Source of the DNA: Pseudoscleropodium purum
Lineage: Eukaryota > Streptophyta > Bryopsida > Hypnales > Brachytheciaceae
Direction: 5' to 3'
Length of the DNA stretch: 64,000 nucleotides
Assembly (NCBI GenBank): GCA_963969395.1
Contig: OZ017796.1
Location: 48,040,243-48,104,242, forward strand
The notes under the pieces were generated by a model, which saw only the letters and a list, made by a program, of their open reading frames with translations, had not been told where the DNA came from and ran no database searches. Shown piece after piece: positions 34,263 through 62,614 of the stretch. Made by a program: the position numbers and the translations under genes. Each line of letters starts with the position of its first letter. Within the stretch, counting starts at the first letter, position 1.

Positions 34263-34289
34263 CATCGCTAAAGTATTTGCAATTTTTGC

Positions 34290-38010: not shown

Positions 38011-39358
38011 ATGGCTTAGTCAAGTGGCAAGGGATTGGCTCTCAGATCCTAGTGCCACTAGTACCACTTGTGAAGCACACTTTTGGGTACTAATATAAGC
38101 ACCATTTGTACTTTTTTAAATACTAAAGTGCAATGGGCTCAAAATATTTTTTGAAAATTAAGCTATAGTACTTAAAATGTATCAAATATAAGATTTTATG
38201 GCACTTCAATCCTTCAATATATTAAAATGTATATTTCCTCTACAAAATATAATCTCTAAATTTCACTTCTTACTCTAGTATAGTAAGTATGAAGATATAT
38301 GGTTTTTACCTTACATGTACAACTTGATCTTCATATTCTTACGAAATGAATATTTTGAAGCCCTTCATTGATGTAAGATATGGATTCTGTATTAATTTTA
38401 TATCAACAAAAAGTTTCTTGTAAAAAAGTATGTTTGAGATTTAAAAGTATAGTCCTACCATATCCTTTAAGCAATTAAACTTGTAAAATTGTTTCTTTTA
38501 AATATCAAAAGTACAGAACATCCATAAAGTTTGATTTATATATATTCAAATCTATAGAAAAAACCAATGACATTTATAAACGGTTTGAAAATGAAATAAT
38601 GCCAAAGTTGGCCTTCAAATTTGTAGAGAAATTCCTCATTTAGATTGATTCTAGAATCATGTATATTGTTCTTTTCTCAACAACAATTTCAAATATTCTT
38701 AGACAATGCCATTCCTTTGGCAAAGCCCCATAAAGAAAGTAATATATTGTTGCGTATATGAATATGGCATCCTTCAAATGTTCACTAAAAAAAAGTTCTT
38801 ATTTCACTTGGTATTTAAGCTTCACCTTAGAATTTTAGCTACTAAAACTGTTCTAATCTAAAGAATATTTTCACCCAATGGATTTCCATTCATTTCCAAC
38901 TAATGACAAATGGGGCCAAGTATAGGTCTTAAACCATAGTGCATAGAAACCATGTTTCTAAAAATAATCAATCAATGTCCATGATTTTCATAAGGATAAA
39001 GAAGACAAAGAAGTTAGGGTGAAAGCTCAATCCAGAAGTGAAAAAAATGTAGGAAGAAGTATGAAAAGACATTTGAAGGCATGTACAAAAGCAACAAGAG
39101 GAAAGATTGGGTTGCATCATGTAGCCTTGTCACATAAATATGGTATTTCTTCAAGGAGCCAAGAATCCTTGAATCTTTATTTCTTCTATAAAAAACTACC
39201 TTTTTTTTTACAAAGAAATTATTCTATCATTCGTCTTTTTATATTCTTTTGAAAATAATACTTGAATGTCAGATTTGCATGTTAGATAAAATTTATACAT
39301 TCCGAGCGGGGGCTTAACCTCTAAAGTCCCAAGGCCTTGTTTTCATTAACTGTCTTTG
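38011..39358. other. AT-rich intergenic DNA
   Basis: No gene. The phrase TTAACCTCTAAAGTCCCA at 39313 recurs in related form at 134 and 20092, hinting at a common repeat that I could not delimit. Confidence 0.55.
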
Positions 39359-40950
39359 TGGCCGAGTTACACCATTACTATGGCCAGGTTACACCATCCC
39401 TGTGGCCGGGTTACACCATCCCTATGGCCGGGTTACACCATCCCTGTGGCCGGGTTACACCATTACTATGGTAGTTTTACACCATCACTATGAACGGGTT
39501 ACACCATCCCTGTGGCCGGGTTACACCATCCCTGTGGCCGGGTTATACCATCACTACGGCCGGGTTACACCATCACTGCGGCCAGGTTATACCTTCACTA
39601 TGACAGGGTTACACCGTCTTTGTGGCTGGGTTACACCATTACTGTGGCCGGGTTACACCATCACTGTGGCCGAGTTACACCTTCACTATGACAGGGTTAC
39701 ACCGTCTTTGTGGCCGGGTTACACCATCCCTGTGGCCGGGTTACACCTTCACTATGACAAGGTTACACCGTCTTTGTGATCGGGTTACACCATCCCTGTG
39801 GCCAGGTTACACCATCACTGCAGCTGGATTACACCTTCACTATGACAGGGTTACACCGTCTTTGTGACCGGGTTACACCGTCTTTGTGACCGGGTTACAC
39901 CATCATTGTGGCCAGGATACACCATCATTGTGGCCAGGTTACACCATCATTGTGACTGGATTATACCATCCCTGTGGCCGGGTTACACCATCACTGCGGC
40001 CGGATTACACCTTCACTATGACAGGGTTACATCGTCTTTGTGACCGGGTTACACCATCACTGTGGCCGGATTACACCTTCACTATGACAGGGTTACACCG
40101 TCTTTGTGGCCGGGTTACACCATCCCTGTGGCTGGGTTACACCATTACTATGGTGGGGTTATACCGTCTTTGTGACCGCATTACACCATCACTGTGGTCG
40201 GGTTACACCATCACTGTGGTTGGGTTACACCATCATTGTGGCCAGGTTACACCATCACTGTGGCTAGGTTACACCATCACTGTGGCCGGGTTATACCATC
40301 ACTGTGGCCAGGTTATACCATCACTGTGACCGGGTTACACCATCCCTGTGGCCGGGTTACACCATCTTTGTGGCCGGGTTACACCATCACTATGGCCGGG
40401 TTACACCTTCACTATGGCCGGGTTACACCTTCACTATGGCCGGGTTACACCTTTACTATGACAGGGTTACACCGTCTTTGTGGCCGGGTTACACCATCAC
40501 TGCGGCCGGATTACACCATCACTGCGGCCGGATTACACCTTCACTATGACAGGATTACACCGTCTTTGTGACCGGGTTACACCATCACTGTGGCCGGGTT
40601 ACACCTTCACTATGACAGGGTTACACCGTCTTTGTGGCCGGGTTACACCATTACTATGGTGGGATTACACCATCACTATGGCCGGATTACACCGTCTTTG
40701 TCACCGGATTACACCATCACTGTGGTCGGGTTACACCATCATTGTGGCCGGGTTACACCATCACTATGGCCGGGTTACACCATCACTGCGGCCGGGTTAC
40801 ACCTTCACTATGATAGGGTTACACCATCTTTGTGGCCAGGTTATACTATCACTGTGACCGGGTTACACCATTGCTATGGCTGGGTTACACCATCATTGTG
40901 GCCGGGTTACACCATCACTGTGACCGGGTTATACCATTGCTATGGTTGGG
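39359..40950 (+). repeat. 22-bp GGTTACACC minisatellite, main array
   Basis: About 72 units of 22 bases with the pattern GGCCGGGTTACACCATCACTGT and variants (CTTCACTATGACAG, GTCTTTGTGGCC). Because 22 is not a multiple of 3, one frame cycles through three unit phases. The array lacks stops in that frame, which produces long repetitive open frames (up to 147 codons) that I regard as artefacts. The array is cut by family A element 1; the remnant lies at 44249-44300. Confidence 0.95.
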
Positions 40951-41224
40951 TGTCGCAGCTTAAAATTTTGATTTTCTTAGTATACACCAAAATAGGAACG
41001 GAAACTAGCCATTAGGGAACCGGATCCGATTAGGTGGGGAAAGAAAACTCAAAATTAGCACGGAACGAGAAGTAGTGGGCCTCTTGGATCTAATCCGGTC
41101 AGGAGTAACTAACGACGGAAACGGAATGCAACATGGATTAGGTCTAGGACTGGATTATGATGATGAACCGGATAATGATGATGAACCGGATTCATGATGA
41201 CGAAACCGGAAAGGGTCCAGAGAC

Positions 41225-41231
41225 TATATAA
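41225..41231 (+). promoter_or_regulatory. TATA box of the family A gene, element 1
   Basis: CTATATAAGGAGG, conserved in all four copies (52667 in element 2; equivalent - strand positions in elements 3 and 4). It sits about 175 bases before the ATG and probably drives the element's gene. Confidence 0.65.
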
Positions 41232-41399
41232 GGAGGAGCTTTCACTGTTGCACCCCCTTTTAGAAACTCGACCTTGAGAGCGCGCGGTTGAGTTTTTGCG
41301 TTTGTGCGTTTGTGTTCTGCTTGTTTTGATTCCGGTTGAGATCGGAGAGAGGAAGTGAGGAACGGGACGTGCGGCTAGGAGAGAGTGAGGTAGATTGGA

Positions 41400-43064
41400 A
41401 TGGGAATGCCTCCGCTACGTAGGTCTAGACCAACGAGTCCCTCTGAAGGTGAGGTGAAGCTCCGGAAAGTTATTCCGGTTATTCCCTCCACAGAGCCGGA
41501 AAAGTCTCAACTCATGGAGGATCTCAAATCCATGGGTTGCCTAGGGTTTGCCGAGAAACCCTAGGGTTTTAGGGAGGAGAGAATGGTCAAGGAGCTCCTC
41601 GGAAAGTTGTCCAACCAGTTTGACAACACCGTGAGAGGAACTCCCGTCAGCTGGAACGAGGGGATGTGGAGAACGGTTTACGGTTTACGGGCAGGAGGTT
41701 TAGGGATGGTGAACTGGAAGGATGAGTTTGTCCGAGGCAAGTTCTAGGGAGCCGTCAACCTGAAGGACGGATACGCGGTCGAGGATTGCGTGGATGACCG
41801 ACACTGTCGGCTTCTGCAATTCTTGGTTCCAGTCCTTCACCCGGAAAAGCCGACCAGGGTGACGATCACCCTCGGCAACACCATTTTCGGTGCCCTCAGT
41901 GGTACCTGGAAAGTGGACTGGGCACGGATCATTTCCGATCTCGTGGCCCAGCTTGTTAGTAGGGTTGGGAAGAAGAGGGCCACTTCAGTGTGCCCTTACC
42001 TCTTCCACCTCTATCGGGAACACCAAGTCCTCACCGACGCGGAGGAGAAGGTGTAGAGGACTCAAGAAGTCCTCCTGCAGTATGGGGAGTCGGAAACGGA
42101 TGACGAGGCCGAATCCGATTTCGGGTCAGACCGGGAGTCGAGCGAGGAGGAGGAGGAGTCGATGCCGCCGATCAAGCGACAGAAGTTGACGCCTCCACAC
42201 AAGCGCGGGACACCTCCCGGTCAAGACAGACCGGCCCCGGAAGAGAAACCGGAAGCCGAGAAGACCGTTTCCGGGGAAGACCCGGAAATGCAAGATCCGT
42301 TCAACGGTCTGATCAACGTCCTCTGCAACATCAGGGCGGATTGGGAGGTCAAGCACAGGACGCTTGCGGCGATCGGAAAGTTGGTAGGTGCGCCACCGGA
42401 CAGCAAGTTGGCAAAACAGGTGGCGGAGTGCATCACCAATCCGGAAGAGACCCGGAAACAGGAAGCGGAGATCCGCCGGTTACAGGAGGAGGTGGACACC
42501 CTTAAGGCCAGTCTTTTTGCCTATCGGGAAGACGTGACGGCCACCCGGGAGATGGCGTAGGAGACTCGGAAGATAGCCGAGCGAATCAAGGCGACCCTAG
42601 GAGAAACCGGAACAGCCACCGCCAAAGCGAAGCTCTTCGACGAGAAGATCCACGAAGAGAAGAAACTATCCGGTTCCCGGATGGTCCGGATTCTCACCGG
42701 CTTCGCTGAGCAAGTGGAGACGGCAATGGTAGAGGGGCGGAAGGCTGCGGACCAGATTGAGGAAAGCAGCCGGAAGCTGACTAGAGCGACGTGCTCCAAG
42801 AGGATACATCTTTCGGATATCTCGCTACCGGATATCTTTCCGGATGCAACCATTCAGAAGGATAGGAAGGATTGGACTCCTGAATCCAAGAAGTCTGCAC
42901 GGGCTGAGACTCCAGGCACGAGACCGGATATCACAATCGACCTGGAGTCTTCACCCGGATCGAATCCTGCGGAGGGGGAACGGGTCCGGAACCTGAGTGA
43001 AGTCTTCGAGGAGTTGGTCCCGGAGATTGGAAGCCCGACAATAGGATCTAGAGTTGTAGAGTAG
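41400..43064 (+). pseudogene. family A coiled-coil protein, element 1 copy
   Basis: One frame of 555 codons from MGMPPLRRSRP to GSRVVE runs without indels but is broken by four TAG codons (41562, 41745, 42054, 42558). Architecture: a predicted helical N-terminal region (about residues 25-230) with RLLQFLVPVLHPEKP and CPYLFHLYREH; an acidic Glu/Ser run followed by basic KRQK (about 245-265); a second helical piece; a long Glu/Lys/Arg coiled coil (about 340-430); a polar tail. I recognise no enzyme motif or zinc knuckle. A gag-like or DNA-binding structural role is possible. The TAG at 42054 is shared with element 2. Confidence 0.8.
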
Positions 43065-43217
43065 ATAGGATTTTGGATTTCAGTTAGGAGTAGGAGCGGA
43101 TCCGGATCCGGATCCGGCTCAACAGTATTAGGTTAGACCGGAAGATTAGATTAGGTTGGCGGCGGACCCCTACGGGTTTTCCGCTTCTTTTTGTGCTTTT
43201 AGGGTTTTTACCCTTTG

Positions 43218-43226
43218 TATATAAAT
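43218..43226 (+). promoter_or_regulatory. second TATA box in element 1
   Basis: GTATATAAATCGG lies after the coding region and is conserved in the other copies. If the unit is an LTR, this is where the retroelement promoter would be expected, with about 1 kb of R-U5 behind it. Otherwise it may be a chance AT word. Confidence 0.4.
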
Positions 43227-44248
43227 CGGTTCCTGCGATGGGAATTGGGAGTTTTTCATTTTGCAAACTTCTTGTACCTTTCTATTCTCTTCATTGTGTG
43301 TCTCTCTCCAACGCGACAGGATTGTATGATGTGGAGTTAGAATAGTACGAGCCGGTTTGCGAGTGATTTCTCCCCTTGGTGTTTCTTTTCCGATCCTAGG
43401 TGCATGTGAGTAGGTATCGAAGAGTTGGGAGTGAACTTAGTTCCTCAGCACATCTAGAATTTGAGATTCTGGGTGAGAAAGCCGTTGTTAGGCTAGGCGG
43501 GTAGGGAGGGATTCCTTAGCTGCGCTAGAACTCCCGGGTGGGAAATCCGGTTGAGTGTCCGATCTCCTGTGAGGTCTCACCACCCGTATGGGTAACGGAA
43601 GAACTTTAATTGATGTTGGAACGGACGGGTACACTTGTAACCACCTGTCTTCGCACGGATCGGAAGTAGCATCAAGGTCGTTGTAGTACGAGAGGGTCGA
43701 GTGTGGGGTCTTCATGTGACCTACAACCCGGATTGCTATCTAGGTTGTTGTGAAGGACCAAACCGGATCCGGATTAGCTTAGGAGTTTAGGAAGTAGGAC
43801 AGTGGGTCTTCAGCCACTATAAGTCACGGAAGGAGTGGTGGGCCTACCACTCTCAAAATTAAGCGGCGACCCCTTTGATGGTGAAACAGAGGCAAAACTA
43901 AACCGGATAGGATTACGGATACATGATGACTATCCCGACTGGATTGGTCAGGACGGATTTCCAGGATCGGAAGTTGTAAGATCCTGGGATTTGGGTATTT
44001 GTATGGACCGGATAGTTAGTAGGACCGGAAGAAGGAGAAATCCGGTCTATAGTTATCCGGTGTGGTGGTGTTTCTGGTTTTAGATCTAGGACCGGAAAGT
44101 AAGATTGGGATACTGACTGAGCTTAACTACTTAATAGAGCTAGATACTTCATAGGATCTCGTGGGTTCGATCTTTAGAGTCACTTAGTTATACTCTAGAG
44201 CGATTTTTGTGAGTATAATGGGGAATTGACCTGCCCTGTGCTGCGACA

Positions 44249-44300: not shown

Positions 44301-47300
44301 AATTCATGGAAATTAATTTCCTTCTTTTTTCAAGGGTAAAGGAAAAATGAACACCAATTTAACCCTTAGTCCTACAACAACCATTTCAAGGTTGTTCCCA
44401 AACTTTGTGCAATAATTCTAGGCCCAAAATACTTCATTTAAAAATCGTTTTTGGCTCCTTCTTGTAAAAAGTTGAATTTTCTAGCACCATTTATTTTCAA
44501 AACTAAGGTTTTTACCCTAAACTGAAAACTTATTAAGGAAATAGTTTAGAAATGCCTAGTGTTGAAAAACTTACTACATACTTGGAAAAACTATTAATGT
44601 TCTTATTACTAGATCTTTTGCATTTTGGCACAAATCAATAGAAACCAAAATTTTAGCCCAAAAAATCAATTACTATTCCAAGATAGAAATTGGATTTAGG
44701 ATGGCATTTTGAAGTTATGTCTTCCAAATTCATTTGTAGGGAATTTGAAAACAATTTTTTGATTTTGAAAAGATGCAAACTCTTTACTTTCCGTGCTTCA
44801 CATTCTCTTCTTTGATATTGACTTCCAAAAAATTATAGAACTAATATTTAATAATACATTTGGCTTTTGTCCAAATTCCTTGGGCTTTGAGGGGTTACCC
44901 TATAAATGAACTCCAATATCAAGAATCATGGAATTTAAAAAAAAATGGGTGATGATTAAAATTTACAACTTCTTAATACTATAGACTTTACATTTGTTCT
45001 TCCATAGTGAATTCTAATAAAATCAGTGTATTCTTATATAGTATTTGACATATTTAGTGTCATTTTCATGGAATATTGCCATTTTAATGAATTCACCATT
45101 CCCATATTAATCAAGTTGTTTTTCACCATTTCCTTAGGAGTAGAAAAAGAGGCACTGTTTTATAATGAGGACACTCAAATCATGGAAGTCATGAAATTGA
45201 ACTAGAATAGGCAAAGACAAAATTATACAAGTCATCAATAAACTTGAGGCTTGACATTCATACCCACATTCAATCCATGCAACTTATACATTTCTTTGTT
45301 TTCTAAGGGATTAAAAAATAGCCCCATTTCTTGTGATTTAGTAAAGGCACTCTATTTGCAAAACTCATAGTATATGAATAGAAATGCACAAAGAAACAAA
45401 TCTACAAATCGTAAATGTTGGAAAAACTCAACATTCATGCCCACATGGAATCCATGCTTTCTTTTCTTCTATTTTCAAAGAGTTTGAAAACAAATTCCTA
45501 TTTCCTAGATCAGGCACTTCATTCCAAAAACTCATAGAATACAAACGGAAAGGAGCAATCAAAGAAAAGGACAAATTGTATACATTGACATCCATACCCA
45601 CAAACACATCATACATTCAATTTGACCTTCATTACATAAAGAAAGATACACCTAGTTCGAGTTCATTAAGCTCAAGTTTCTGAACTCATGGAATTGGAAT
45701 GCAAAGGGACAAGGAATAAAATGGAAAAGTCATAAATATTGTAGAGACTTGAATATCATGTTTGTTTTCACAATGTGCATTTTTTACATTTAGGGTCTAA
45801 ATAATAAAACCACATCCAATTTTAGTTAAGGGTTTTAGGGTTGCTTTGATCATAGACATTTCCATATCATACAATTTTTCCTTTCATTTTTCCAAAAGAA
45901 CACAAATAGATGAAGATTTTCAATTAAAAGAGCTCAAAATAAAGAAGCCATGCAATGTTTGGGTTTACTTTGTATCTAAAGAAAAGTACACCTGATTTTA
46001 TTTAAAGAAAATGAAGTCTCCAAACTCATGGAACATAACCCCTACAAGACCAAGGCCTTTTGGGGGGCCAAAAAACACTCAAAACTACCAATTCTATAGC
46101 AAAAGATTGAAAAAAAAAGTTGTAATTGTTTTTTTCACATCTAACCATAGGATCTTACACCTAATTAGTATGAAATGCATGGAAAAATTTTTAAAAATGA
46201 GAGGGACACAATGAGAACATTCTTTGTAAGATCTCCAAGTAGAAATAAAAAATGTTGAGTATCAAGTAGTGTAGCTTGGCCTCCAAATACACCTTGACAC
46301 TTCTTGGTCCCAAAAAGTTTCACCAACGTAGCCTGGCCTTGTGTCCTATAGAGGCAAAAGGACACTTTTTCAACTTTTTTCTTCCTTGCAATGAAATTTG
46401 TTTCATTTGTATCAAAAAAAAAATCGAATTGATCGATATTACTAGACAATACCTTTGGACTTGATTTATTTATTCCATTTGGTTCATTCCTTTCAACTAC
46501 AAGTCCAAACTTGACTATTTTCACACTTAGTTTACTCTATAAGCTACTTCCTCTAGTTTCAAATAGGACAAACTAATCTATATACTAAGTTGGTTGGCCC
46601 CCTAATTCAACTAGTTGTTGACCTGTAGTCACGCTAATTTTGGAGGCCAATGTTTGGTAATGCAAATTCCTATTTGGAGTTGCAGCTTGCAAATTTAGGA
46701 TGTTAAACCGTAGAATACTAGTCCAAATCGGTGCTTTTGGCTAACTATAGTGGAAAAAGGGCTAGTGGATATGTAGTTGAGTTGGATTCCAAGTGGGTAG
46801 TTCAATTGTGTTGGATTTTGATCGTTGTGAGTCAATTTGGTGGAGTTGAAGAAGTGCCTAGTGGGTATTTAGCCCTCTCTCCCAATTTGGATTTGGACCG
46901 AGTGTTGAGTTGAGCCCACTGCAAGTCCAGCCCTATGAAGGCTTAATTTCTTTTATGTATTTTTGGCATGTTATTCAATTGTGAATCTAGTATTGGTTGT
47001 GTCATTGTAGTTGGTTTAATAGTTGAGTTTAATATGTGAGAAAATTGAATGTCTAATTAGTATTATTAAATGGTGTGTTGGATTGAATTGGACTAAATTT
47101 GGAATTGGGTTGAAGACATGAGATTGGTTTAGGTTGAATCAAATTTTAATTAAAATTTATCTCCCTACTTAAATGTTTCCCTTGGATCGAACTTAATATA
47201 CTATATAGATAGTTACCTAATTGGCAACCAAACCCTTGTCTACATTTTGGTTAAAATAAAAAAATAAAACAAATAAAATAATAATAATTAAAAAAAAAAA

Positions 47301-47715
47301 ATGAAAGCTAAAAGAACAATTAGGCAGCTTCTAAAAATATTTTTTTATGTCAAATACTTCACTTTAAGAATGGGAAAATATTATTAGGGGATTTAATATG
47401 GAATATTAGATGAATTTAGTTAGTAATCATTACAACTTAAAAATAAATAAATAAATAGCGTGAGAATTAAAGAGCAATATAAAATTCCCGAGAGTATTAA
47501 TTAAGAAGAATAGAGATAAAGAAAAGATTTTAAGAAAATTGGAAGAGAAAGAAAATAAGGAAAAAGAAAAGTAAAAGGAATAATTGAAAATAAATTATTG
47601 GGAATTTATTTTTAGAAGATACATTTATAAGTGGCTGGTAATAAATAAGGGGATATAGATTTTAGAAAATCATATGAAAATTATTAAATAGGGTATAATC
47701 TGTAAATGCTTTGAG
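44301..47715. other. AT-rich intergenic DNA
   Basis: No supportable gene. A purine-rich, A-rich stretch lies at about 47255-47590. Open frames (the longest 119 codons) look compositional. Confidence 0.6.
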
Positions 47716-47959
47716 CAATTAATAGAACGGTTAAACCGGGTAAGGGTAATGAACACTTTGAGTGACCATGAAGGGCCCCCTAATTGAGTACACTTGTAAA
47801 ATGGCGGCATAGTAACCGGTTAAACCGTTCTTCTTCTTCTTCTTGCTCTGAATCACTGTTTGCTTGAAGCTTTGAGCGATTTCGTTGTGAAGGCGCGTGT
47901 AGAGCTTTTAGCAGAGTATGATCGTGAGTGAGAAACAACTTGGCGTGCTGTTTGAGTAA

Positions 47960-50900
47960 GCTTAAAGCGAAGATCTGAGTGTGTGAGTGGAGACTGAGCT
48001 TGGAGCTAGAGGAGAGAGACGCTTAAAGCGAATTCGAACGAAGAAGATGGCGGTGGTAGGAGAGATAAGAACGCTTGAAGCATAAAGAGGAGCGCAACAA
48101 GTTGGTGACGTTGAAGTGTAGGGCAAGAGCGGAAGCATCTGGTGGTTGCTAATCAAGAAGGAGAGTGACTTCAGCGTTGGTCTGGAGTTGCAGACGAAGT
48201 ACGAGGAGCGACTGTTTATACGCTTAAAGCGATTTTTGTTGAAGCTCTGGTTGCATTACAGAAGAAGATTGAAGGCTGAGTTGGTGAGCAACTTGTGAAA
48301 CAGTGTAACTGATTGACCGATGTTGGAAGTCATGAAATGATGTTCTTGTTTTGCTTTAAAGCAATGCTGTTTTGTTAGGTTAAATCAGTTTAGTTGATGA
48401 GGGATATTTGCTTGAGTATAAAAGTTCTCTTAAGAGTGTTTTACTAGGTTATGCCAAGTGTATTGTAAGTCGCTGAAGCGTTTAGATTGTTTGTATTGAT
48501 GGTCTGCGTCTTAGAGTGAGAAAATATAGACGCTGAAGCGTATTAAGGAGAAAGGCTTAAAACTATCTGTTTGAGGTCGATATGTTAACAGTAATGTTTG
48601 TAGCCAGTACATAGGGTTAACATGTTTAAAGCAACCGTTAGTGGAAGTTGATCTGAAGAAGGAAGGACATACGCTTTAAGCGGTTAATATTAACAAAGAT
48701 AATCATGTAAAACAGTTAAACTAATGAGTCTTAGCTAATGTAGTGAATGATCATAACTGGTTATACCAATAAGTGATTACGCTCAAAACGATTAACGAAG
48801 ACAGAGGACGTTGAAGCGATATAGAAATAGTTTAAGAGTGTATAGGAAGGATGAGTCATCGCTTTTAAGCTGTTAAGATATATTCTTTTAAAAAGAACAT
48901 CAATCTATAAGCTGACTTAATGCTTTAAGTAGTAAAGACTTTGGAGTTGGTAGCTAAGGATATAAGCGCTTTAAGCAATTGATAAAGATGATGCTAAATA
49001 TGAAATTAAAGATGTAAATGGACGAGCCAACACTTAAAGTGAAGAAGACAAAGAACGGATCAGATGAAGGAATAACACTTAAAGCGTATAAAGATGCTTG
49101 AGTCTAACCGCTTAAGCGTAATCCTATTCTTGTTACAGGTTGGAAGAATAGCATGAAGGGTGGAGAGAAGGAGGATCCGACAAACTTTAGGAAGCGACTG
49201 CATGACTACAAGGTGCCGTTGACAAGAGTGGGATTATGGAACTACTTGACGCAGTTTCGAGGTCCTACTGTTTATAGAGAAAATGTCATAGCTGCCATGA
49301 TAGGATTGATGGCAGGAGACACCAAATAATTCCAAGTTCAGCATGGTGGACATTAGTTGCTCATGGTGGCCATTGTACCTTCTGTTATTTTTCAACTCCT
49401 GGATGAGAGGACTTGTACTCCCTTGACAAGATTCAAGGAACCCACGAAGAAAGTTTGGAATTAGATTTTTCCAGGAGGCAAAAGGGAGAATTACGATTCG
49501 GAGTTTGGAATGTGGGAGTATGCGGATTCCAAGGAGCCGTGGAGTTCACTATTCTCCTTCATCAACATGTATTTCTGCTTTGAGCGGGTTTCCATGGAGT
49601 TGTCAATGGAGGTAATCCAGATGGCTGTTAAAGCTGTGGAGGGACATCGGTTGAATTGGAGCGCACTTCTAGTGAAGGAGCTGTACCGGTTTATCATTGA
49701 CATGAGGGCTGACGAGACCAGTCAATCTATCCCAAAATATATTCTTACGATGCTTTGGGAGAAGAGCTTCAAGCTGGATTACGTTAAGCCGCTTACAACG
49801 ATCACCTATTTGGGAGAACCTTCCAAACATAAAACTAAAGCTCAGGAAGGGGAAGGGGATCGCTTAAAGCGTATCAATGTGGGAACTAGTTCGACTCTGG
49901 TGGAGTCAGTCTCTCCGCAAGCTGAAAGAAGCTCTCAGAAGAGAACACGGGTGGAATCATTGCCGGTACCGGAGCAAGAAGCCAACCTCATCGATCAAAT
50001 CGTGGCTGGTGTTTCCAAACAGATGGCCGCAACACCGGATGTAGTTGCTCGTGATTTGAAGATTACACAATTGGAGGAAGCCTTGCGCAAGAGTCAAGAG
50101 GAGACCAAAGAAATCTGCAAATCCAACAACAATCTGGGTAGGCAATTGAAGGACAAGGATGACCAAATTATGTATTTGGAATCTGAAAGGTTTAGGGTGG
50201 ACGATGTGGTGAAATATCAAAAGGAACACATCCAACGGATTCTGGCTGAAGTTGCTGAAAAAGTGTCGCTTGTAGCAAAAAAGGATAAGGAACTTCAAGC
50301 CGAACGAGCTGCTCAAGAGGGAAGGATTAAGCAACTCAGAGCGAGGGATGCAGATCATGCTTTAAAGCAGCATCAAAACGCTTTAAGCGTACTCCAGTTC
50401 TAGTTAACAGTTGCTTAAGCGCAGGGAGAGAAGGCCACATTATCGGGTGCTTCAGCTTCTCGTCCGGTTGAACCTGTACTTGTGGAGAATGGAAGATTGG
50501 ATCAGATGAAGGCCCAAATTTGGGAGAGAGAGCGACCCCTTCCTTCCTTTCCATCCTTATTCCATGCTTATGAGAGCCAACGGGATTTATTCCTGATTTT
50601 GGAGGAGTTGGAGGTTAAGCAGCTGATTACTGTGAATACGTTTCAACGACTTTGGGCTGAAGCAGAGTTTACTGCAAATCAGACGCTAATAGCGGAAATG
50701 TTAGTAAGGGGGGATTTAGAATTGGTAGACTTAGTACCGGTTTTACCTATGCTAGGCGATTTAGAGGCCCAATCCCTTCAATATTATTCTACACTTGAAG
50801 CAGACTTGCAGTGTCGTAGGATGGTTAAACCTAGTCCAGAGGAAAGGGTACTCGCTTTAGAGTATTATATGGTAGGTGTCCAAAACGCTTTAAGCGCCAT

Positions 50901-51650
50901 GTCTTGGACCCAGCTTAGGCAGTAGGGAGCAGTATTAGACATCCAAGCTGCCTTTTTGAGCGATAATAGGACGCTTCAAGCGTTAGTAGTAAACTCCACT
51001 GATCGACAACGCTTAAGCGAGATGAGGGAATTTAGGGCAAAAGACTATGAGCATAGCTTTGCGTCAACTTTGAGTAGGATTTACCAGGTCATTGGGCCGT
51101 TTAAAGCGAATAGAAAGCCGCAGGGTTATGAAGTTCAGTCTACGCTTAAAGCGACTGAGGAGGTGTAACCGTTACCTAGAGAGATAGTAGTGCAGCCAGC
51201 AATGGAGGAGCGAGTGGATGACCAATAGTATTTGGAAAATTACAATGCTCTATTTGACCGCTTAAGCGAACCTCCCTTCATCAGCTGGAAAGCAATTGAA
51301 TGGATGTTGAAGGATGTGGGGATGGTGAGAAGATTGGGGTCGCCTCTGGATAAGGTGTTGCGTGAGAAAAGCGACGAGGAGAACACAACTTGGACGGTGC
51401 AACCTCCTGATGAGGTAGTGCAGAATCCAAGGTTTTATCTGTGTGAGAGGAGGTACCGCTGGGATCCTGCTTCCACGGTTGATAGCATGGAGTATAATTA
51501 ACCCAGAATTCCGGGACCATTTTACTCACCAGAAGAATGTGCAACAGCTTATAGCAGGTTCTTCAAGCAACACCGACATCATCATGATCCAGTATGCTTT
51601 AGAGCGGTGGTTCATTCAACCATTTTAGCATATTGGTGTCGCTCTAAGCG
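47960..51650. repeat. dispersed near-palindrome CGCTTAAAGCG (family B)
   Basis: Recurrent words of the form CGCTT-(N)-AAGCG occur at about 47960, 48020, 48071, 48221, 48351, 48471, 48531, 48671, 48860, 48966, 49076, 49109, 49861, 50358, 50379, 50411, 50884, 50971, 51010, 51142, 51259 and 51640, with further weaker copies. They occur in non-coding and coding parts, the latter in different reading frames. They are absent from the family A elements inserted in the middle. Confidence 0.85.
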
Positions 51651-54376
51651 TATAGCTATTGACATCAACTATTATGATGCTGTCGCAGCACAGGGCAGGT
51701 AAATTCCCCATTATACTTACAAAAATCGCTCTAGAGTATAACTAAGTGACTCTAAAGATCGAACCCACGAGATCCTGTGAAGTATTTAGCTTTATTAAGC
51801 AGTTAAGCTCAGTCAGTATCCCAATCTTACTTTCCGGTCCTAGATCTAGAACCAGAAATACCACCACACCGGATAACTATAGACCGGATTATTCCTTCTT
51901 CTGATCCTACTAACTATTCGGTCTGTGCAAATATCCAAATCCCAAGATCTTACAACTTCCGGTCTTGGAAATCCGTCCTGACCAATCTGGTCGGGATGGT
52001 CATCATGTATCCGTAATCCTATCCGGTTTAGTTTTGCCTCTGTTTCAGCATCAAAGGGGTCGCCGCTTAATTTTGAGAGTGGTAGGCGCACCACTCCTTC
52101 CGTGACTTATAGTGGCTGAAGACCCACTGTCCTACTTCCTAAATTCCTAAGCTAATCCGGATCCGGTTTGGTCCTTCACAGCAACCCAGATAGCAATCCG
52201 GGTTGTAGGTCATACAAAGACCCCACACTCGACCCTCTCGTACTACAACGACCTTGATGCTACTTCCGATCCGTGCGAAGACAAGTGGTTACAAATGTAC
52301 CCGTCCGTTCCAACATCGACTAAAGCCCTTCCGTTTGCCAACTAAGGCGGTAAGACCTCACAGGAGATCGAACAATCGACCGGATTTCCCACCTGTCGCA
52401 GCTTAGAATTTTGATTTTCTTTGTATACACCAAAATAGGAACGGAAACTAGCCATTAGGGAACCGGATCCGATTAGGTGGGGAAGGAAAACTCAAAATTA
52501 GCACGGAACGAGAAGTAGTGGGCCTCTTGGATCTAATCCGGTCAGGAGTAACTATCGACGGAAACGGAATGCAACACGGATTAGGTCTAGGACCGGATTA
52601 TGATGATGAACCGAATAATGATGGTAAACCGGATTCATGATGACAAACCGGAAAGGGTCCAGGGACTATATAAGGAGGAGCTTTCACTGTTGCACCCCCT
52701 TTTAGAAACTCGACCTTGAGAGCGCGCGGTTGAGTTTTTGTCGTTTGTGCGTCTGTACGTTTGTGTTTTGTCTGTTTTGCTTCCGGTTGAGATCGGAGAG
52801 AGGAAGTGAGGAACGGGACGTGCGGCTAGGAGAGAGTGAGGTAGATTGGAATGGGAATGCCTCCGCTACGTAGGTCTAGACCAGCGAGTCCCTCTGAAGG
52901 TGAGGTGAAGCTCCGGAAAGTTATTCCGGTTATTCCCTCCACAGAGCCGGAAAAGTCTCAACTCATGGAGGATCTCAAATCCATGGGTTGCCTAGGGTTT
53001 GCCGAGAAACCCAAGGGTTTTAGGGAGGAGAGAATGGTCAAGGAGCTCCTCGGAAAGTTGTCCAACCAGTTTGACAACACCGTGAGAGGAACTCCCGTCA
53101 GCTGGAACGAGGGGATGTGGAGAACGGTTTACGGTTTACGGGCAGGAGGTTTGGGGATGGCGAACCGGAAGGATGAGTTTGTCCGAGGGAAGTTCCAGGG
53201 AGCCGTCAACCCGAAGGACGGATACGCGGTCGAGGATTGCGTGGATGACCGACACTGTCGGCTCCTGCAATTCTTGGTTCCAGTCCTTCACCCGGAAAAG
53301 CCGACCAGGGTGACGATCACCCTCGGCAACACCATTTTCGGTGCCCTCAGTGGTACCTGGAAAGTGGACTGGGCACGGATCATTTCCGATCTCGTGGCCC
53401 AGCTTGTTAGTAGGGTTGGGAAGAAGAGGGCCACTCTAGTGTGCCCTTACCTCTTCCACCTCTATCGGGAACACCAAGTCCTCACCGACGCGGAGGAGAA
53501 GGTGTAGAGGACTCAAGAAGTCCTCCTGCAGTATGGGGAGTCGGAAACGGATGACGAGGCCGAATCCGATTTCGGGTCAGACCGGGAGTCGAGCGAGGAG
53601 GAGGAGGAGTCGATGCCGCCGATCAAGCGACAGAAGTTGACGCCTCCACACAAGCGCGGGACACCTCCCGGTCAAGACAGACCGGCCCCGGAAGAGAAAC
53701 CGGAAGCCGAGAAGACCGTTTCCGGGGAAGACCCGGAAATGCAAGATCCGTTCAACGGTCTGATCAACGTCCTCTGCAACATCAGGGCGGATTGGGAGGT
53801 CAAGCACAGGACGCTTGCGGCGATTGGAAAGTTGGTAGGTGCGCCACCGGACAACAAATTGGCGGAATAGGTGGCGGAGTGCATCACGAATCCGGAAGAG
53901 ACCCGGAAGCAGAAAGCAGAGATCCGCCGGTTGCAGAAAGAGGTGGACACCCTTAAGGCCAGTCTTTTTGCCTATCAGGAAGACATGACGGCCGCCCGGG
54001 AGATGGCGGAGGAGACTCAGAAGATAGCCGAGCAGATCAAGGCGGTCCTGGGAGAGACCGGAACGGTCGCCGCTAAGGCGAAGCTCTTCGACGAGAAGAT
54101 CCACGAAGAGAAGAAACTATCCGGTTCCCGGATGGTCCGGATTCTCGCGGACTTCGCTGAGCAGGTGGAGACGGCAATGGTGGAGGGGCGGAAGGCTGCG
54201 GACCGGATCGAGGAGAGCAGCCGGAAGCTGACTGCAGCGACGTGCAACAAAGGTATTCATCTTTCTGACATCTCGCTCCCGGACCTCTTTCTGGACGCGA
54301 CTATTGCGAAGGAGAGGAAGGATTGGACTCCTGAGTCCAAGAAGTCTACACGGACTCGGACTCCGGGCACGAGACT

Positions 54377-57300
54377 TGTCGCAGCACAGGGCAGGTCAAT
54401 TCCCCATTATACTCACAAAAATCGCTCTAGAGTATAACTAAGTGACTCTAAAGATCGAACCCACGAGATCCTGTGAAGTATCTAGCTCTATTAAGCAGTT
54501 AAGCTTAGTCAGTATCCCAATCTTACTTTCCGGTCTTAGATCTAGAACCAGAAACACCACCACACCGGATAACTATAGACCGGATTTCTCCTTCTTCCGG
54601 TCCTACTAACTATCCGGTCCGTACAAATATCCAAATCCCAGGATCTCACAACTTCCGATCTTGGAAATCCGTCCTGACCAATCCGGTCGGGATGGTCATT
54701 ATGTACCCGTAATCCTATCCGGTTTGGTTTTACCTCTGTTTCACCATCAAAGGGGTCGCCGCTTAATTTTGAGAGTGGTAGGCCCACCACTCCTTCCGTG
54801 ACTTATAGTGGCTGAAGACCCACTGTCCTACTTCCTAAACTCCTAAGCTAATCCGGATCCGGTTTGGTCCTTCACAACAACCCAGATAGCAATCCGGGTT
54901 GTAGGTCATACAAAGACCCCACACTCAACCTTCTCGTACTACAACGACCTTGATGTTACTTCCGATCCGTGCGAAGACAGGTGGTTACAAGTGCACCCGT
55001 CCGTTCCAACATCAACTAATGTTCTTCCGTTACCTATACGGGTGGTGAGACCTCATAGGAGATCGGACACTCAACCGGATTTCCCACCCGGGAGTTCTAG
55101 CGCAGCTAAGGAATCCCTCCCTACCCGCCTAGCCTAACAACGGCTTTCTCACCCGGAATCTCAAACTGTAGACGTGCTGAGGAACTAAGTGCACTCCCAA
55201 CTGTTCGATACCTACTCACATGCACCTAGGATCGGAAAACAAACACCAAGGGGAGAAATCACTCGCAAACCAACTCGTACTCTCCTAACTCCACATCATA
55301 CAATCCTGTCGCGCTGGAGAGAGACACACAATGAGGAGAAAAGAAAGGTACAACAAAATTTGCAAAATGGACAAACTCCCAATTCTCATCGCGGGAACCG
55401 ATTTATATACAAAGGGTAAAAATCCTAAAAGCACAAAAAGGAGCGGAAAACCCGTAGGGGTCCGCCGCCACCCTAATCTAACTTCCGGTCTAACCTAATA
55501 CTGTTGAGCCGGATCCGGATCTGGTTCCGCTCCTACTCCTAACTGAAATCCAAAATCCTATCTACCCTACAACTCTAGATCCTATCGTCGGGCTTCCGAC
55601 CTCCGGGACTAGCTCCTCGAAGACTTCACTCAAATTTCGGACCCGGTCCCCCTCCGCAGGATTCGATCTGGGTGGAGACTCCAGGTCGATGGTGATATCC
55701 GGTCTCGTGCCCGGAGTCCCAGTCCGTGCAGACTTCTTGGACTCAGAAGTCCAATCCTTCCTATCCTTCGCCATAGTCGCGTCCGAAAAGAGGTCCGGGA
55801 GCGAGATGTCAGAAAGATGAATACCTTTGTCGCACGTCGCTCCTGTCAGCTTCCGGCTGCTCTCCTCGATCCAGTCCGCAGCCTTCCGCCCCTCCACCAT
55901 TGCCGTCTCCACCTGCTCAGCGAAGTCCGCGAGAATCCGGACCATCCGGGAACCGGATAGTTTCTTCTCTTCGTGGATCTTCTCGTCGAAGAGCTTCGCC
56001 TTGGCGGCGGCCGTTCCGGTCTCTCCCAGGACCACCTTGATCTGCTCGGCTACCTTCCGAGTCTCCTCCGCCATCTCCCGGGCGGCCGTCACGTCTTCCT
56101 GATAGGTAAAAAGACTGGCCTTAAGGGTGTCCACCTCCTCCTGCAACCGGCGGATCTCGGCTTCCTGCTTCCGGGTCTCTTCCGGATTCGTGATGCATTC
56201 CGCCACTTGTTCCGCCAATTTGCTGTCCGGTGCAGCATCCACCAACTTGCCGATCGCCTCAAGCGTCCTGTACTTGACCTCCCAATCCACCCTGATGTTG
56301 CAGAGGACGTTGATCAGACCGTTGAACGGATCTTGCATATCCGGGTCTCCCCCGGAATTGGTCTTCTCGGCTTCCGGTTTCTCTTCCGGGGCCGGTTTGT
56401 CTTGACTGGGAGGCGTCCCGCGCTTGTATGGAGGCGTCAGCTTCTGTCGCTTGATCGGCAGCATCGGCTCCTCTTCTTCCTCGCTGGACTCCCGGTCTGA
56501 CCCGGAATCGGATTTGGCCTCGTCATCCGTCTCCGACTCCCCATACTTCAGGAGGACTTCCTGAGTCTTCCACACCTTCTCCTCCATGTCGGTGAGGACT
56601 TGGTTCTTCCGATAGAGGTGGAAGAGATAAGGGCACACTGGAGTGGCCCTCTTCTTCCCAACCCTACTAACGAGCTGGGCCACGAGATCGGAAATGATCT
56701 GTGCCTAGTCCACTTTCCGGGTACCACTGAGGGCACCGAAAATGGTGTTGCCGAGGGTGATCGTCACCCTGGTCGGCTTTTCCGGGTGAAGGACCGGAAC
56801 CAGGAATTGCAGGAGCCGACGGTGTCGGTCATCCACGCAATCCTCGACCGCGTATCCGTCCTTCGGGTTGACGGCTCCCTGGAACTTTCCTCGAACAAAC
56901 TCATCCTTCCGGCTCGCCATCCCCAAACCTCCTGCCCGTAAACCGTTCTCCACATCCCCTCGTTCCAGCTGACGGGAGTTCCTCTCACGGTGTTGTCAAA
57001 CTGGTTGGACAACTTTCCGAGGAGCTCCTTGACCACTCTCTCCTCTCTAAATCCCCAGGGTTTCTCGGCAAACCCGAGGCAACCCATGGATTTGAGATCC
57101 TCCATGAGTTGAGACTTTTCCGGCTCTGTGGAGGGAATAACCGGAATAACTTTCCAGAGCTTCACCTCACCTTCAGAGGGACTCGCTGGTCTAGACCTAC
57201 GTAGCGGAGGCATTCCCACTCGAAACTACCTCACTCTCTCCTAGCCGCACGTCCTGTTCCTCACTTCCTCTCTCCGATCTCAACCGGAAGCAAAACAGAC

Positions 57301-57676
57301 AAAACACAAACGTACAGACGCACAAACGACAAAAACTCAACCGCGCGCTCTCAAGGTCGAGTTTCTAAAAGGGGGTGCAACAGTGAAAGCTCCTCCTTAT
57401 ATAGTCCCTGGACCCTTTCCGGTTTGTCATCATGAATCCGGTTTACCATCATTATTCGGTTCATCATCATAATCCGGTCCTAGACCTAATCCGTGTTGCA
57501 TTCCGTTTCCGTCGATAGTTACTCCTGACCGGATTAGATCCAAGAGGCCCACTACTTCTCGTTCCGTACTAATTTTGAGTTTTCCTTCTCCACCTAATCG
57601 GGTCCGATTCCCTAATAAATAGTTTCCGTTCCTATTTGGGTCTATACTAAGAAAATCAAAATTCTAAGCTACGACA
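54377..57676 (-). mobile_element. family A element 3 (innermost, 3300 bp)
   Basis: A complete unit on the - strand with ends TGTCGCAGC and GCTACGACA. The flanks AGACT/AGACC match at 4 of 5 and lie in the element 2 coding sequence, where sister copies read GAGACCGGATAT across the empty site. It is the youngest insertion of the nest, because it interrupts element 2, which interrupts element 4. Confidence 0.9.
55562..57219 (-). pseudogene. family A protein, element 3 copy
   Basis: Starts MGMPPLRRSRP at 57219. Near 56940 a 7-base contraction of a GGTTTAC direct repeat shifts the frame, and TAG at 56705-56707 replaces the Trp of VDWAR. Downstream, 373 codons from MAQLVSRVGKK (56683) to GSRVVG are open. 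They cover the FHLY motif, acidic run, KRQK, the whole coiled coil and the tail. TGG is retained where elements 1 and 2 have the shared TAG. Confidence 0.8.
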
Positions 57677-59481
57677 AGACCGGATATCACCATCGACCTG
57701 GAGTCTCCACCCGGATCGAATCCTGCGGAGGGGGAACGGGTCCGAAATTTGAGTGAAGTCTTCGAGGAGCTGGTCCCGGAGATCAGAAGCCCGACAATAG
57801 GATCTAGAGTTGTAGGGTAAATAGGATTTTGGATTTCAGTTAGGAGTAGGAGCGGATCCGGATCCGGATCCGGCTCAACAGTATTAGGTTAGACCGGAAG
57901 ATTAGATTAGGGTGGCGGCAGACCCCTACGGGTTTTCCGCTCTTTTTTGTGCTTTTAGGGTTTTTACCCTTTGTATATAAATCGGTTCCCGCAATGGGAA
58001 TTGGGAGTTTTTCATTTTGCAAACTTCTTGTACTTTTCTATTTCTCTTCATTGTGTGTCTCTCTCTAACGCGACAGGATTATATGATGTGGAGTTAGGAT
58101 AGTACGAGCCGGTTTTGGGAGTGACTTCTCCCCTTGATGTTTATTTTCCGATCCTAGGTGCATGTGAGCAGGTATCGAAGAGTTGGGAGTGAACTTAGTT
58201 CCTCAACACGACTAGAGTTTGAGATTCCGGGTGAGAAAACCGTTGTTAGGCTAGGTGGGTAGGGAGGGATTCCTTAGCTGCGCTAGAACTCCCGGGTGGG
58301 AAATCCAGTTGAGTGTCCGATCTCCTGTGAGGTCTCACCACCCGTATGGGTAACGGAAGAACTTTAATTGATGTTGGAACGGACGGGTACACTTGTAACC
58401 ACCTGTCTTCGCACGGATCGGAAGTAACATCAAGGTCGTTGTAGTACGAGAGGGTCGAGTGTGGGGTCTTTGTGTGACCTACAATCCGGATTGCTATCTG
58501 GGTTGTTGTGAAGGACCAAACCGGATCCGGATTAACTTAGGAGTTTAGGAAGTAGGACAGTGGGTCTTCAGCCACTATAAGTCACGGAAGGAGTGGTGGG
58601 CCTACCACTCTCAAAATTAAGCGGCGACCCCTCTGATGGTGAAACAGAGGCAAAACTAAACCGGATAGGATTACGGATACATGATGACTATCCCGACCGG
58701 ATTGGTCAGGACGGATTTCCAGGATCGGAAGTTGTGAGATCCTGGGATTTGGGTATTTGTACGGACCGGATAGTTAGTAGGACCGGAAGAAGGAGAAATC
58801 CGGTCTATAGTTATCCGGTGTGGTGGTGTTTCTGGTTCTAGATCTAGGACCGGAAAGTAAGATTGGGATACTGACTGAGCTTAACTGCTTAATAGAGCTA
58901 GATACTTCACAGGATCTCGTAGGTTCGATCTTTAGAGTCACTTAGTTATACTCTAGAGCGATTTTTGTGAGTATAATGGGGAATTGACCTGCCCTGAGCT
59001 GTGACACCACCCGGGAATTCTAGCGCAGCTAAGGAATCCCTCCCTATCTGCCTAGCCTAACAACGGCTTTCTCACCCGGAATCTCAAACTCTAGACGTGC
59101 TGAGGAACTAAGTTCACTCCCAACTCTTAGATACCTACTCACATGCACCTAGGATCGGAAAATAAACACCAAGGGGAGAAATCACTCGCAAACCGGCTCA
59201 CACTATTCTAACTCCACATCATACAATCCTGTCGCGCTGGAGAGAGACACACAATGAGGAGAAGGGGAAGGCACAAGAAATTTGCAAAATGAAGACTCCC
59301 AGTTCCCATCGCAGGAACCGATTTATATACAAAATGTAAAAAACCCTAAAAGCACAAAAAGGAGCGGAAAACCCGTGGGGGTTCGCCGCCACCCTAATCT
59401 AACTTCTGGTCTAACCTAATACTGTTGAGCCAGATCCGGATCCGGATCCGCTCCTACTCCTAACTGAAATCAAAATCCTAT

Positions 59482-61149
59482 CTACTCTACAACCCTAGAT
59501 CCTACTGTCGGGCTTCTGCTCTCCGGATCCAGCTCCTCGAAGACTTCACTCAAGTTCCGGTTCCGTTCCCCCTCCCCAGGGTTAGATCCGGGTGAAGACT
59601 CCAGGTCGATTGTAATATCCGGTCTCGTGCCCGGAGTCTCAGTCCGTGCAGACTTTTTGGACTGGGGAGTCCAATCCTTCCCACTCTTCGGAACGGTCGC
59701 ATCCGAAAAGATATTTGGTAGCAAGATATCCGAAAGATGTATCCCCTTGGAGCACGTTGCTCCAGTCAGCTTCCGATTGCTTTCCTCAATCCGGTCCGCA
59801 GCCTTCCGCCCTTCTATCATCGCCGTCTCCACCTGCTCAGCAAAGTCGGTGAAAATCCGGACCATTCAGGAACCGGATAGTTTCTTCTCCTCGTGCATCT
59901 TCTCGTCGAAGAGCTTCGCTTTGGTGGCGGCCATTCCGGTCGCTCCCAGGGTGGCCTTGATTTGCTCGGCTATCTTCCGAGTCTCTTCCGCCATCTTCCA
60001 GGTGGCCGTCACGTCTTCCTGATAGGCAAAGAGAGTTGCCTTTAGGGTGTCCACTTCCTCCTGCAGCCGGCGGATCTCCGCTTCCTGTTTCCGGGTCTCT
60101 TCCGGATTGGTGATGCACTCCGCCACCTATTCCGCCAACTTACTGTCCAGTGGCGCATCTACCAACTTTCTGATCGCCGAAAGCGTTCTGTGCTTGACCT
60201 CCCAATCCGCCCTGATGTTGCAGAGGAGGTTGATGAGGCCGTTGAATGGATCTTGCACTTCCGTGTCTTCCCCGGGAACGGTCTTCTCGACTTCCGGTCT
60301 TTCTTCCGGGGCCGGTTTGTCGTGACCGGGAGGTGTCCCGCGCTTGTGGGGAGGTGTCATCTTCTGTCGCTTGATGGGCGGCATCGGCGACTCCTCGTCT
60401 TCCTCACTGGACTCCCGGTCTGACCCGGAATCAAACTCGGCCTCGTCATCCGTTTCCGACTCCCCATACTGCAGGAGGACTTCTTGAGTCCTCCACACCT
60501 TCTCCTCCGCGTCGGTGAGGACTTGGTGTTCCCGATAGAGGTGGAAGAGGTAAGGGCACACTAGAGTGGCCTTTTTCTTCCCAACCCTACTAACGAGCTG
60601 GGCCACGAGATCGGAAATGATCCGTGCCCAGTCCACTTTCCGGTTACCACTTAGGGCACCGAAAATGGTGTTGCCAAGGGTGATCGTCACCCTGGTCGGC
60701 TTTTCCGGGTGAAGGACCGGAACCAAGAATTGCAGAAGCCGACGGTGTCGGTCATCCACGCAATCCTCGACCGCGTACCCGTCCTGCGGATTGACGGCCC
60801 CCTGGAATTTGCCCCGGACGAACTCATCCTTCCGGTTTGTCATTCCTAACCCTCCTGCCCAGAAACCATAAACACCTCTCCACATTTCCTCGTTCCAGCG
60901 GATAGGGGATCCTCTCACGGTGTTGTCAAACTGGTTGGACAACTTTCCGAGGAGCTCCTTGACCATTCTCTCCTCCCTAAAACCCCAGGGTTTCTCTACA
61001 AACCCTAGGCAACCCATAGAGGTGAGGTCCTCCATGAGTTGAGACTTTTTCGGCTCTGTGGAAGGAATAACCGGAATGACTTTCCGGAGCTTCACCTCGC
61101 CTCCAGAGGGACTCGCTGGTCTCGACCCACGTAGCGGCGGCATTCCCAC
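59482..61149 (-). pseudogene. family A protein, element 4: best preserved copy
   Basis: Codons run in a single frame from the ATG at 61149 (MGMPPLRGSRP) to the TAG at 59482, 555 residues, with only two interruptions: TAG at 60127-60129 after KLAE, and TGA at 59866-59868 after SGS. Both sit where sister copies have sense codons (Gln and Arg). The layout is as in element 1: helical N-terminal region, acidic run then KRQK near residue 280, coiled coil about 345-430, Ser/Pro-rich tail. The in-frame integrity over 1.67 kb shows that the reading frame was under selection until recently. Reaction and partners are unknown. Confidence 0.8.
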
Positions 61150-61844
61150 TCCAATCTATCTCACTCTCTCCTAGCCGCACGTCCCGTTCCTCACGTTCTC
61201 TCTCCGATCTCGACCGGAATCAAAGCCTGCAGCACACAAACGCAAAAACTCTATAACGCGCGCTCAAAGTCGAGTTTCTAAAAGGGGGTGCAACTGCGAA
61301 GGCTCCTCCTTATATAGTCTCTGGATCCTTTCCGGTTTGGTCGTCTTGAATCCGGTTCACCCATAATCCGGTCCTAGATCTAATCCGTGTTGCATTCCGT
61401 TTCCATCGATAGTTACTCCTGACCGGATTAGACCTAAGAGGCCCACTACTTCATGTTCTGTACTAATTTTGAATTTTCCTTCTTCACCTAATCGGATCCG
61501 GTTCCCTAATGGCTAGTTTCCATTCCTATTTTGGTGTATACTAAGAAAATCAAAATTTTAAGCTGCGACAAATGCTGGTGGCGTGAGTTTTGGCTTTTCA
61601 TGAGGTTGCACTACTCAAGCTCAAAGTTTACTCGTTTGCTTGAAGCCATGGCTATTTCCAATTTCATTGCTGGAGTGCATCATTCTTTGATGGATGAGCA
61701 GAGTAACTTGTATCAACCATGTCAACGCTTCTTAGCTCATCAAGCGCGGTATAACTATAGAACGCTTAAAACGGATGAGTACCTGTTTTAGTGTTTGCAG
61801 CAAGCACAGGAATGGGAGCGGAAGCGTAATGCAAACCAAGACAG

Positions 61845-61880
61845 ACTAAGGGTTTCGGGTTTCGGGTTTCGGGTTACATG
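61845..61880 (+). repeat. telomere-like GGGTTTC run
   Basis: Three to four consecutive GGGTTTC units followed by GGGTTACATGGG, at the boundary between the family B relic and repeat C. It resembles the plant telomere repeat TTTAGGG with one substitution; too short to imply a telomere. Confidence 0.7.
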
Positions 61881-62064: not shown

Positions 62065-62614
62065 GTTACATGGGTATCCTATAGCTTTTCGACTTTTTAT
62101 TTTTAGATTTTGAGTAGACCTACCCCCCCATTTGTGAGGTATATGAATCCAACCGTAGTGAAGAAAAGCTATACAATTTCACAGTTTGCGAGATGTGGCA
62201 ACTTTGACTTTGATGTATGGAAGTTTGACTTTGCCTTAGGGGATGCAATTGGATGAGTTTTCTAACAAGACCAACTATTTCAGGATGTAATTCGTGAGAG
62301 CTTTCCAAGAAAGTTTAGTTCGTCTAAAATTAGGCTTTTTATTTTTAGACTCTATAGGATGGTGTAGGTGGATTTGGACTTTAGTGAAGGTGGTCCGGGT
62401 CTATTATGGATTGGATGATCTTGTAGATCTTGTGATTGTGGTCATGAGATGATGTGGCCCTTTTCCATTGGACCCCGTATGGATGAGTTCTTGATGGATG
62501 AAGTTTTGATTTTTAAACTTCATCTGCAAATTGGCGCTAGTTGATGTATTGGATGACAAAGTGAAACACCTTTTTGGAAAGCGCTTTCAAGCATCTACAA
62601 GGTGGTGTACTTAT
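62065..62614. repeat. dispersed ~550-bp repeat C, copy 2
   Basis: Direct-orientation partner of 32487-33035. A further diverged partial copy precedes it (about 61886-62040, with GACCTACCCCCCCATTTG and GGAATCCAA.GGTGGTG), so the repeat is locally tandem. Confidence 0.9.

Follow-up and report, generated by a model that had tools for sequence, protein, structure and literature searches.

What a short DNA word does when it is scattered over both the non-coding and the coding part of a mobile element is the question raised by a stretch of the moss Pseudoscleropodium purum genome (contig OZ017796.1, positions 48,040,243 to 48,104,242; the whole stretch of 64 kb is called the window below). The element concerned, B, carries a near-palindrome of the form CGCTT(N)AAGCG, and an earlier note made from the letters alone had suggested that B may encode, or be recognised by, a protein that binds this word for anti-silencing, packaging or transposition, in parallel with the VANC proteins of plant VANDAL elements. 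A second element, A, is inserted into B and carries another word. The analysis presented here leaves the chances about evenly balanced that each of these elements encodes a protein which binds the word scattered over it and works against silencing in the manner of VANC.

A palindromic word dispersed over element B

With at most one mismatch allowed, CGCTTAAAGCG gave 22 strand-wise matches in the window (a palindromic site counts once per strand) against 0.32 expected, and 21 of them fell at 47959-51650. Places in B were counted with the pattern CGCTT-N0-1-AAGCG (spacer 0 or 1) over 47700-51680 and 61576-61840, 4.2 kb in total, and 300 dinucleotide-preserving shuffles were used as the background. 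Such counting revealed 11 exact sites (shuffle mean 0.0, maximum 0), 21 sites with at most one mismatch (mean 0.22, maximum 2) and 38 with at most two (mean 2.98, maximum 8). The more than twenty variants reported in the earlier note were thereby recovered, and their enrichment over shuffled sequence was clear. B holds every one of the window's 11 exact sites (Table 1), and 39 of the 43 AAGCG half-sites in B were part of a palindrome with at most two mismatches. A blind scan for exact palindromes with 5-bp arms was decisive for B only (11 versus a shuffle 99th percentile of 2).

The 21 sites were divided between the leader (10), the open reading frame (ORF; 10) and the tail (1), and those in the ORF were distributed 4/3/3 over the frames (3/2/2 for the seven exact ones). 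The recurring unit is thus the DNA word and not a peptide, as had been claimed. The median site spacing in the main part of B was 109 bp. No tandem arrays of the word were found in B; the sites are dispersed, and their flanks were hardly more similar to one another than random positions are (mean likeness 0.311 versus 0.295).

In the surveyed genome (313 Mb, 52 contigs), 146 strand-wise matches to CGCTTAAAGCG were found versus 37 for the reversed pattern. The clusters examined at C41:40.22, C1:40.91 and C41:24.50 Mb were copies of B, and L049 held only the long terminal repeat (LTR) of B, described below. At the DNA level, L047, L048, L050 and L051 resembled neither B nor its LTR. The first eight CGCTTAAAGCG places listed, taken with 1.5-kb flanks, were lone sites with no B sequence around them.

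Table 1. Positions of the parts of element B, its exact words and the copies of element A in the window.
Feature	Position	Strand	Remarks
B, non-coding leader of accessory module	47256..49152	+	similarity to L042, L044; 10 sites allowing 1 mismatch, 4 of them exact
B, accessory ORF, broken	49153..51680	+	842 codons read through; 10 sites allowing 1 mismatch, three frames
B, continuation past element-A nest	61576..61851	+	alignment with L042, L044, L046; 1 site
Exact word CGCTTAAAGCG	48020..48030	.	leader
Exact word CGCTTAAAGCG	48221..48231	.	leader
Exact word CGCTTTAAGCG	48672..48682	.	leader
Exact word CGCTTAAGCG	49109..49118	.	leader
Exact word CGCTTAAAGCG	49861..49871	.	ORF frame 0
Exact word CGCTTTAAGCG	50379..50389	.	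ORF frame 2
Exact word CGCTTTAAGCG	50886..50896	.	ORF frame 2
Exact word CGCTTCAAGCG	50972..50982	.	ORF frame 1
Exact word CGCTTAAGCG	51010..51019	.	ORF frame 0
Exact word CGCTTAAAGCG	51143..51153	.	ORF frame 1
Exact word CGCTTAAGCG	51259..51268	.	ORF frame 0
Element A, copy A0	40951..44248	+	3.3 kb, ends TGTCGCAGC...GCTGCGACA, 30 WCCGGW words
Element A, copy A1, within B	51681..61570	-	pieces 51681-52393 and 59012-61570; duplication GATGC/AATGC
Element A, copy A2, within A1	52394..59006	+	pieces 52394-54376 and 57682-59006; duplication CCACC/CCACC
Element A, copy A3, within A2	54377..57676	-	duplication AGACT/AGACC
A2, N-terminal domain of A's protein	52851..53555	+	modelled on its own; VANC21-DNA (9lnj_A) is the best structural match

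Structure and affiliation of element B

The earlier note had described the carpet of words at 47960..51650. B itself starts near 47256, a limit taken from the alignment with L042 (word counts start at 47700), and resumes at 61576-61851 after an interruption of 9.9 kb (51681-61570), in which three copies of element A are nested. Its right piece ends where another repeat cuts in. A 550-bp repeat is present at 32487-33035 and 62065-62614 (95% identical), the second copy just past the right end of B. The accessory ORF contains five TAG and four TAA codons, and the frame is open when these are read through.

Three more copies of B were examined (L042, L044 and L046). At C41:40.2163-40.2326 Mb (L042, L043), the B module has a gag-pol region on one side and a 1.42-kb LTR on the other, and a second LTR closes the far end; this direct pair (L042:2781-4201 and L043:7828-9214) is 97.3% identical and flanks the internal region. 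A Retrotrans_gag match (1.3e-10) was obtained in a B-type element, and in L043 and L044 gag precedes RVT_1, RNase H, H2C2 and rve in Ty3 order, with the protease match of the B-type element under its curated cut-off. A candidate target-site duplication, CATTG, was seen by eye beside both outer LTR ends, and a candidate primer-binding site, TTTTGGCGCC, inside the 5' LTR; one LTR end needs a presumed base change. The B of the window has neither gag-pol nor LTRs. B represents the 3' accessory module of an LTR retrotransposon of the Ty3 type. In most pairs of B copies, third codon positions had changed only slightly more than the others, which is expected because the copies are mostly dead.

Both LTRs carry B's word at five sites each with identical spacing, and the accessory module of the L042/L043 copy has 26 sites in 5.7 kb, the 3' LTR included. 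No site was found in 7.8 kb of L043, the gag-pol region at the opposite end of the internal region. Because this region is empty while sites are present in the LTRs and the accessory module, RNA packaging, one of the roles proposed earlier, is disfavoured.

B's protein had no Pfam match (DUF1985 and DUF287 without a match up to E 5-10), no sequence match in the PDB and no relative among the database candidates scored.

Short inserts of about 300 bp, dense in CGGACG and with CAGGGTTGAC-like ends, were noticed in L044 (5708-5997) and L045 (671-968 and 2308-2575); two CGGACG-dense inserts were located within the internal part of retrotransposon copies of the B type. Further dense places are L046:5943-6155 and L048. 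The CGGACG clusters of the window (2595-2679, 6776-6804 and 16979-17207) have the word in common with the inserts and nothing more. As a further element word CGGACG was rejected; it is enriched in L048 and L057, yet also in control slices of the genome, and in L044 and L045 it lies in the short inserts.

Words at the loci of relatives of B's protein

The genome search with the read-through protein of B resulted in 60 matches, with identity down to about 23%. The relatives examined outside the close family were L053 (59%), L047 (42% and 30%), L057 (35%), L052 (33%), L055 (33%), L056 (28%) and L054 (24%); L047 had first been chosen for its CGCTTAAAGCG matches and L056 is its neighbour. Their words were picked by inspecting enriched k-mers.

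B's word, with at most one mismatch, was absent from five of these loci and occurred twice in L047. CAA[AT]TTG was found 26 times in L052 (shuffle mean 1.4), CWATWG 44 times in L054 and 28 times in L057 (means 3.7 and 2.9), and CTCTT(N)AAGAG, with a half-site one letter off B's word, 13 times in L047 (mean 0.5). Most words of L047 lie outside the matched coding stretches, so its link between word and protein is weaker than that of L052 or L054. Exclusivity of the words was imperfect, CWATWG being raised in L047 too (31 versus 11.3) and CGGACG frequent in L057 and L056. In the blind palindrome scan, the excess over the shuffle 99th percentile was marginal for L052 (3 versus 2), L047 (8 versus 6) and A0 (3 versus 2), and L054 was not above shuffles (2 versus 2).

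The relative in L055 (302-2209, minus strand) retains an open frame of 636 codons without a word carpet. This gene could be silencing-free or domesticated.

Element A and its protein

Element A measures about 3.3 kb, has the ends TGTCGCAGC...GCTGCGACA and contains a single ORF. The genome search with its protein gave 2710 first-look candidates, of which the best 78 were scored. Outside the window, 32 units were tried and 30 measured, L017 and L032 being excluded as split matches. The unit's own 5-bp duplication was exact in 21 of the 30, had one mismatch in 1 and two to four mismatches in 8. Each of the four copies in the window contains 26-30 WCCGGW words, where shuffles contain about 5, and the 30 units outside it contain 25-36 each. 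These sites were intact in 82.5% of ordered comparisons versus 74.3% for other CpG-centred 6-mers, the comparisons not being independent. Little or no difference was observed for CpG protection in element A (27/456 CpG bases within CCGG changed versus 89/1286 outside).

The A ORF was free of stops in 10 of the 30 units examined. The median pairwise ratio of nonsynonymous to synonymous substitution rates (dN/dS) was 0.41 (435 pairs), with 0.33 for the 61 pairs with dS > 0.12 and 0.39 for the 45 pairs of intact copies, all among copies that were best matches to an outside relative, a choice favouring conserved ones. An alternative genetic code with TAG and TAA read as Gln, under which A and B would be open, was rejected because Trp or Lys codons stand opposite the stops among A copies, substitutions run mostly G>A and C>T (114 and 85 versus 40 and 36 for the reverse) and a third of the examined ORFs are free of stops anyway.

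The protein of A had no Pfam domain, and DUF1985 and DUF287 gave no match up to E 5-10. The predicted model of its N-terminal domain (Table 1) is suggestive of a VANC21-like fold; for B's protein, a VANC fold may be assumed by analogy.

A could conceivably be the LTR of a long-LTR element, but this view was not supported. With about 300 bp available on one side of most units, flanks were in common for two pairs only (L016/L030 and L028/L036), and one same-strand pair within 20 kb was present among the 78 matches scored out of 2710 candidates (L040/L041), L040 having its own duplication. In the window, a 22-bp minisatellite (GGCCGGGTTACACCATCACTGT-like) occupies 39345-40950 and 33851-34270, and A0 sits in the larger array.

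A possible role of the words in anti-silencing

If the words serve anti-silencing, the accessory protein would bind the word of its own family, probably as a dimer, and the density of sites would concentrate it on its own promoters, that is, on the LTR and the accessory leader. There it would remove or block silencing marks, and the element would thereby be transcribed without waking unrelated elements. A change in protein specificity and the replacement of the word would occur together. Binding, dimerisation and anti-silencing are activities that we infer for the accessory protein. The parallel with VANC, which the earlier note had drawn, gains weight because loci with divergent relatives of B's protein have other words and the modelled N-terminal domain of A's protein best matches DNA-bound VANC21; the relatives' loci without a carpet do not fit it.

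Several observations limit the support for this reading. None of six tested words was above shuffles in L055 or in the decayed L053, and neither locus had a clear word of its own. No significant similarity, profile match included, was found between the proteins of B and A. Among 3-kb control slices of the genome, 7 of 37 reached a z-score of at least 10 at k=6, so word enrichment alone is not rare in this genome; one of the high-scoring slices was B's own LTR, and others were tandem repeats or a CGGACG-rich insert. The conservation of B's sites, which had been proposed as a check, gave a divided result in four copies of about 91% identity. At the exact sites of the window copy, non-CpG bases were kept (3/207 comparisons differ versus 952/10,070 outside), and CpG bases showed little or no difference (12/124 versus 63/598). 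Sites with one mismatch allowed were no better kept than their flanks (7.5-9.9% differences versus 9.1-9.7% outside). The exact sites give weak support, because picking exact sites in itself reduces the expected divergence.

It is conceivable, though we would lean somewhat against it, that sequence-specific anti-silencing is a general strategy used by several mobile elements (Ty3 retrotransposons and a 3.3-kb unit without a recognisable transposase), each of which would pair a DNA-binding protein of the VANC-like kind with an address of its own, mostly palindromic and scattered over coding and promoter DNA, and would replace this address wholesale as the protein diverges. If true, the strategy of VANC would be either convergent or far more ancient, the role of one class of extra retrotransposon ORF would become testable, and the genome would supply a natural set of matched proteins and words from which the recognition code could be read. 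It would also raise the question of how sites that number in the dozens, dispersed and not in tandem repeats, come to change in concert.

Other explanations of the word carpet

Binding of the word by the element's protein might serve another step, namely integration or self-targeting, the handling of complementary DNA or RNA, or plain activation of the element's own promoters without an effect on silencing. The carpet and its layout fit this equally well, and A is nested in A, in A, in B. The duplication AGACC of A3 adjoins GGAT, and therefore A3 inserted at a CCGG word of A2. However, no A word was found at the junctions of the A0, A1 and A2 insertion points, the empty gag-pol region speaks against packaging along the genomic RNA, and the sole structural lead is an anti-silencing protein; such a role appears unlikely. 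It is less probable still that the words are binding sites of host factors, namely a transcription factor or a chromatin protein, which each family would attract to its promoters. LTRs and leader are where promoter sites are expected, but the coding region is filled in all frames too, the words differ between loci with related accessory proteins, and the eight lone genomic sites have no visible context.

The words could also be functionless, spread by a mutational or recombinational process in fast-evolving, unconstrained parts of the elements. The frequency of word-rich control slices, the family of 300-bp inserts rich in CGGACG and the weak conservation of B's sites are consistent with this, whereas the dispersed, non-tandem sites with their dissimilar flanks and the better preservation of A's words than of other CpG-centred 6-mers are not. 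To our knowledge, no process sets a palindrome at a median spacing of about 110 bp across coding and non-coding DNA, and this explanation is given the lowest probability of all, being rather improbable.

Comparison with known systems

The sources compared here were available in part, and statements on them refer to those parts. VANC in the VANDAL DNA transposons of Arabidopsis acts via short words in non-coding tandem repeats of one orientation (PMC5735166). The anti-silencing reading of B and A has in common with it an element-encoded protein, a dense family-specific short word and related elements with different words (PMC5735166, PMC10398659); dense words of this kind were found in B, A, L052 and L054, and for A the predicted model adds a suggestive match to the DNA-bound VANC21 domain. 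A meeting report cites unpublished work on the VANC-DNA structure. In contrast to VANDAL, the carriers are not Mu-like, since B has a Ty3 pol and A is a 3.3-kb unit with 5-bp duplications and no Pfam domain, and neither protein matches DUF1985 or DUF287. The words of B and A are palindromes or near-palindromes that lie dispersed, in coding DNA too, unlike the tandem, same-orientation, non-coding VANC motifs; no word arrays were present, the flanks were unlike and about half of B's sites lie in the ORF. The B/A case is classed as one that would work like VANC, not as a member of the VANC family.

The rice Ty3 LTR retrotransposons Retrosat2, RIRE3 and RIRE8 have an additional ORF0 (PMC3485330) and resemble B as gag-pol elements with an extra ORF of no established function; the LTRs of RIRE8 and Retrosat2 end in TGTCACACCC, similar in style to the TGTCGCAGC ends of A. 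Their ORF0 lies upstream of gag-pol, whereas the extra ORF of B, carpeted with the palindrome, follows pol and precedes the 3' LTR; no such word is mentioned in the available text of PMC3485330. The sunflower Tekay LTR retrotransposons likewise carry an extra ORF, whose protein resembles double-stranded RNA-binding proteins and is discussed beside VANC (PMC12844716); they differ from B in this predicted RNA binding, and a carpet of DNA words is not mentioned in that text. In the literature covered, at title and abstract level outside subscription journals and preprints, no palindrome carpet on an LTR retrotransposon was reported, and self-addressed anti-silencing is documented for Mu-like DNA transposons only. 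Two things are new in comparison with VANC: the carriers (a 3.3-kb unit and a Ty3 retrotransposon) and the dispersed, mostly palindromic words, which also occur in coding DNA. If the anti-silencing reading is true, the trick by which Arabidopsis elements escape silencing would extend to another class of mobile element.
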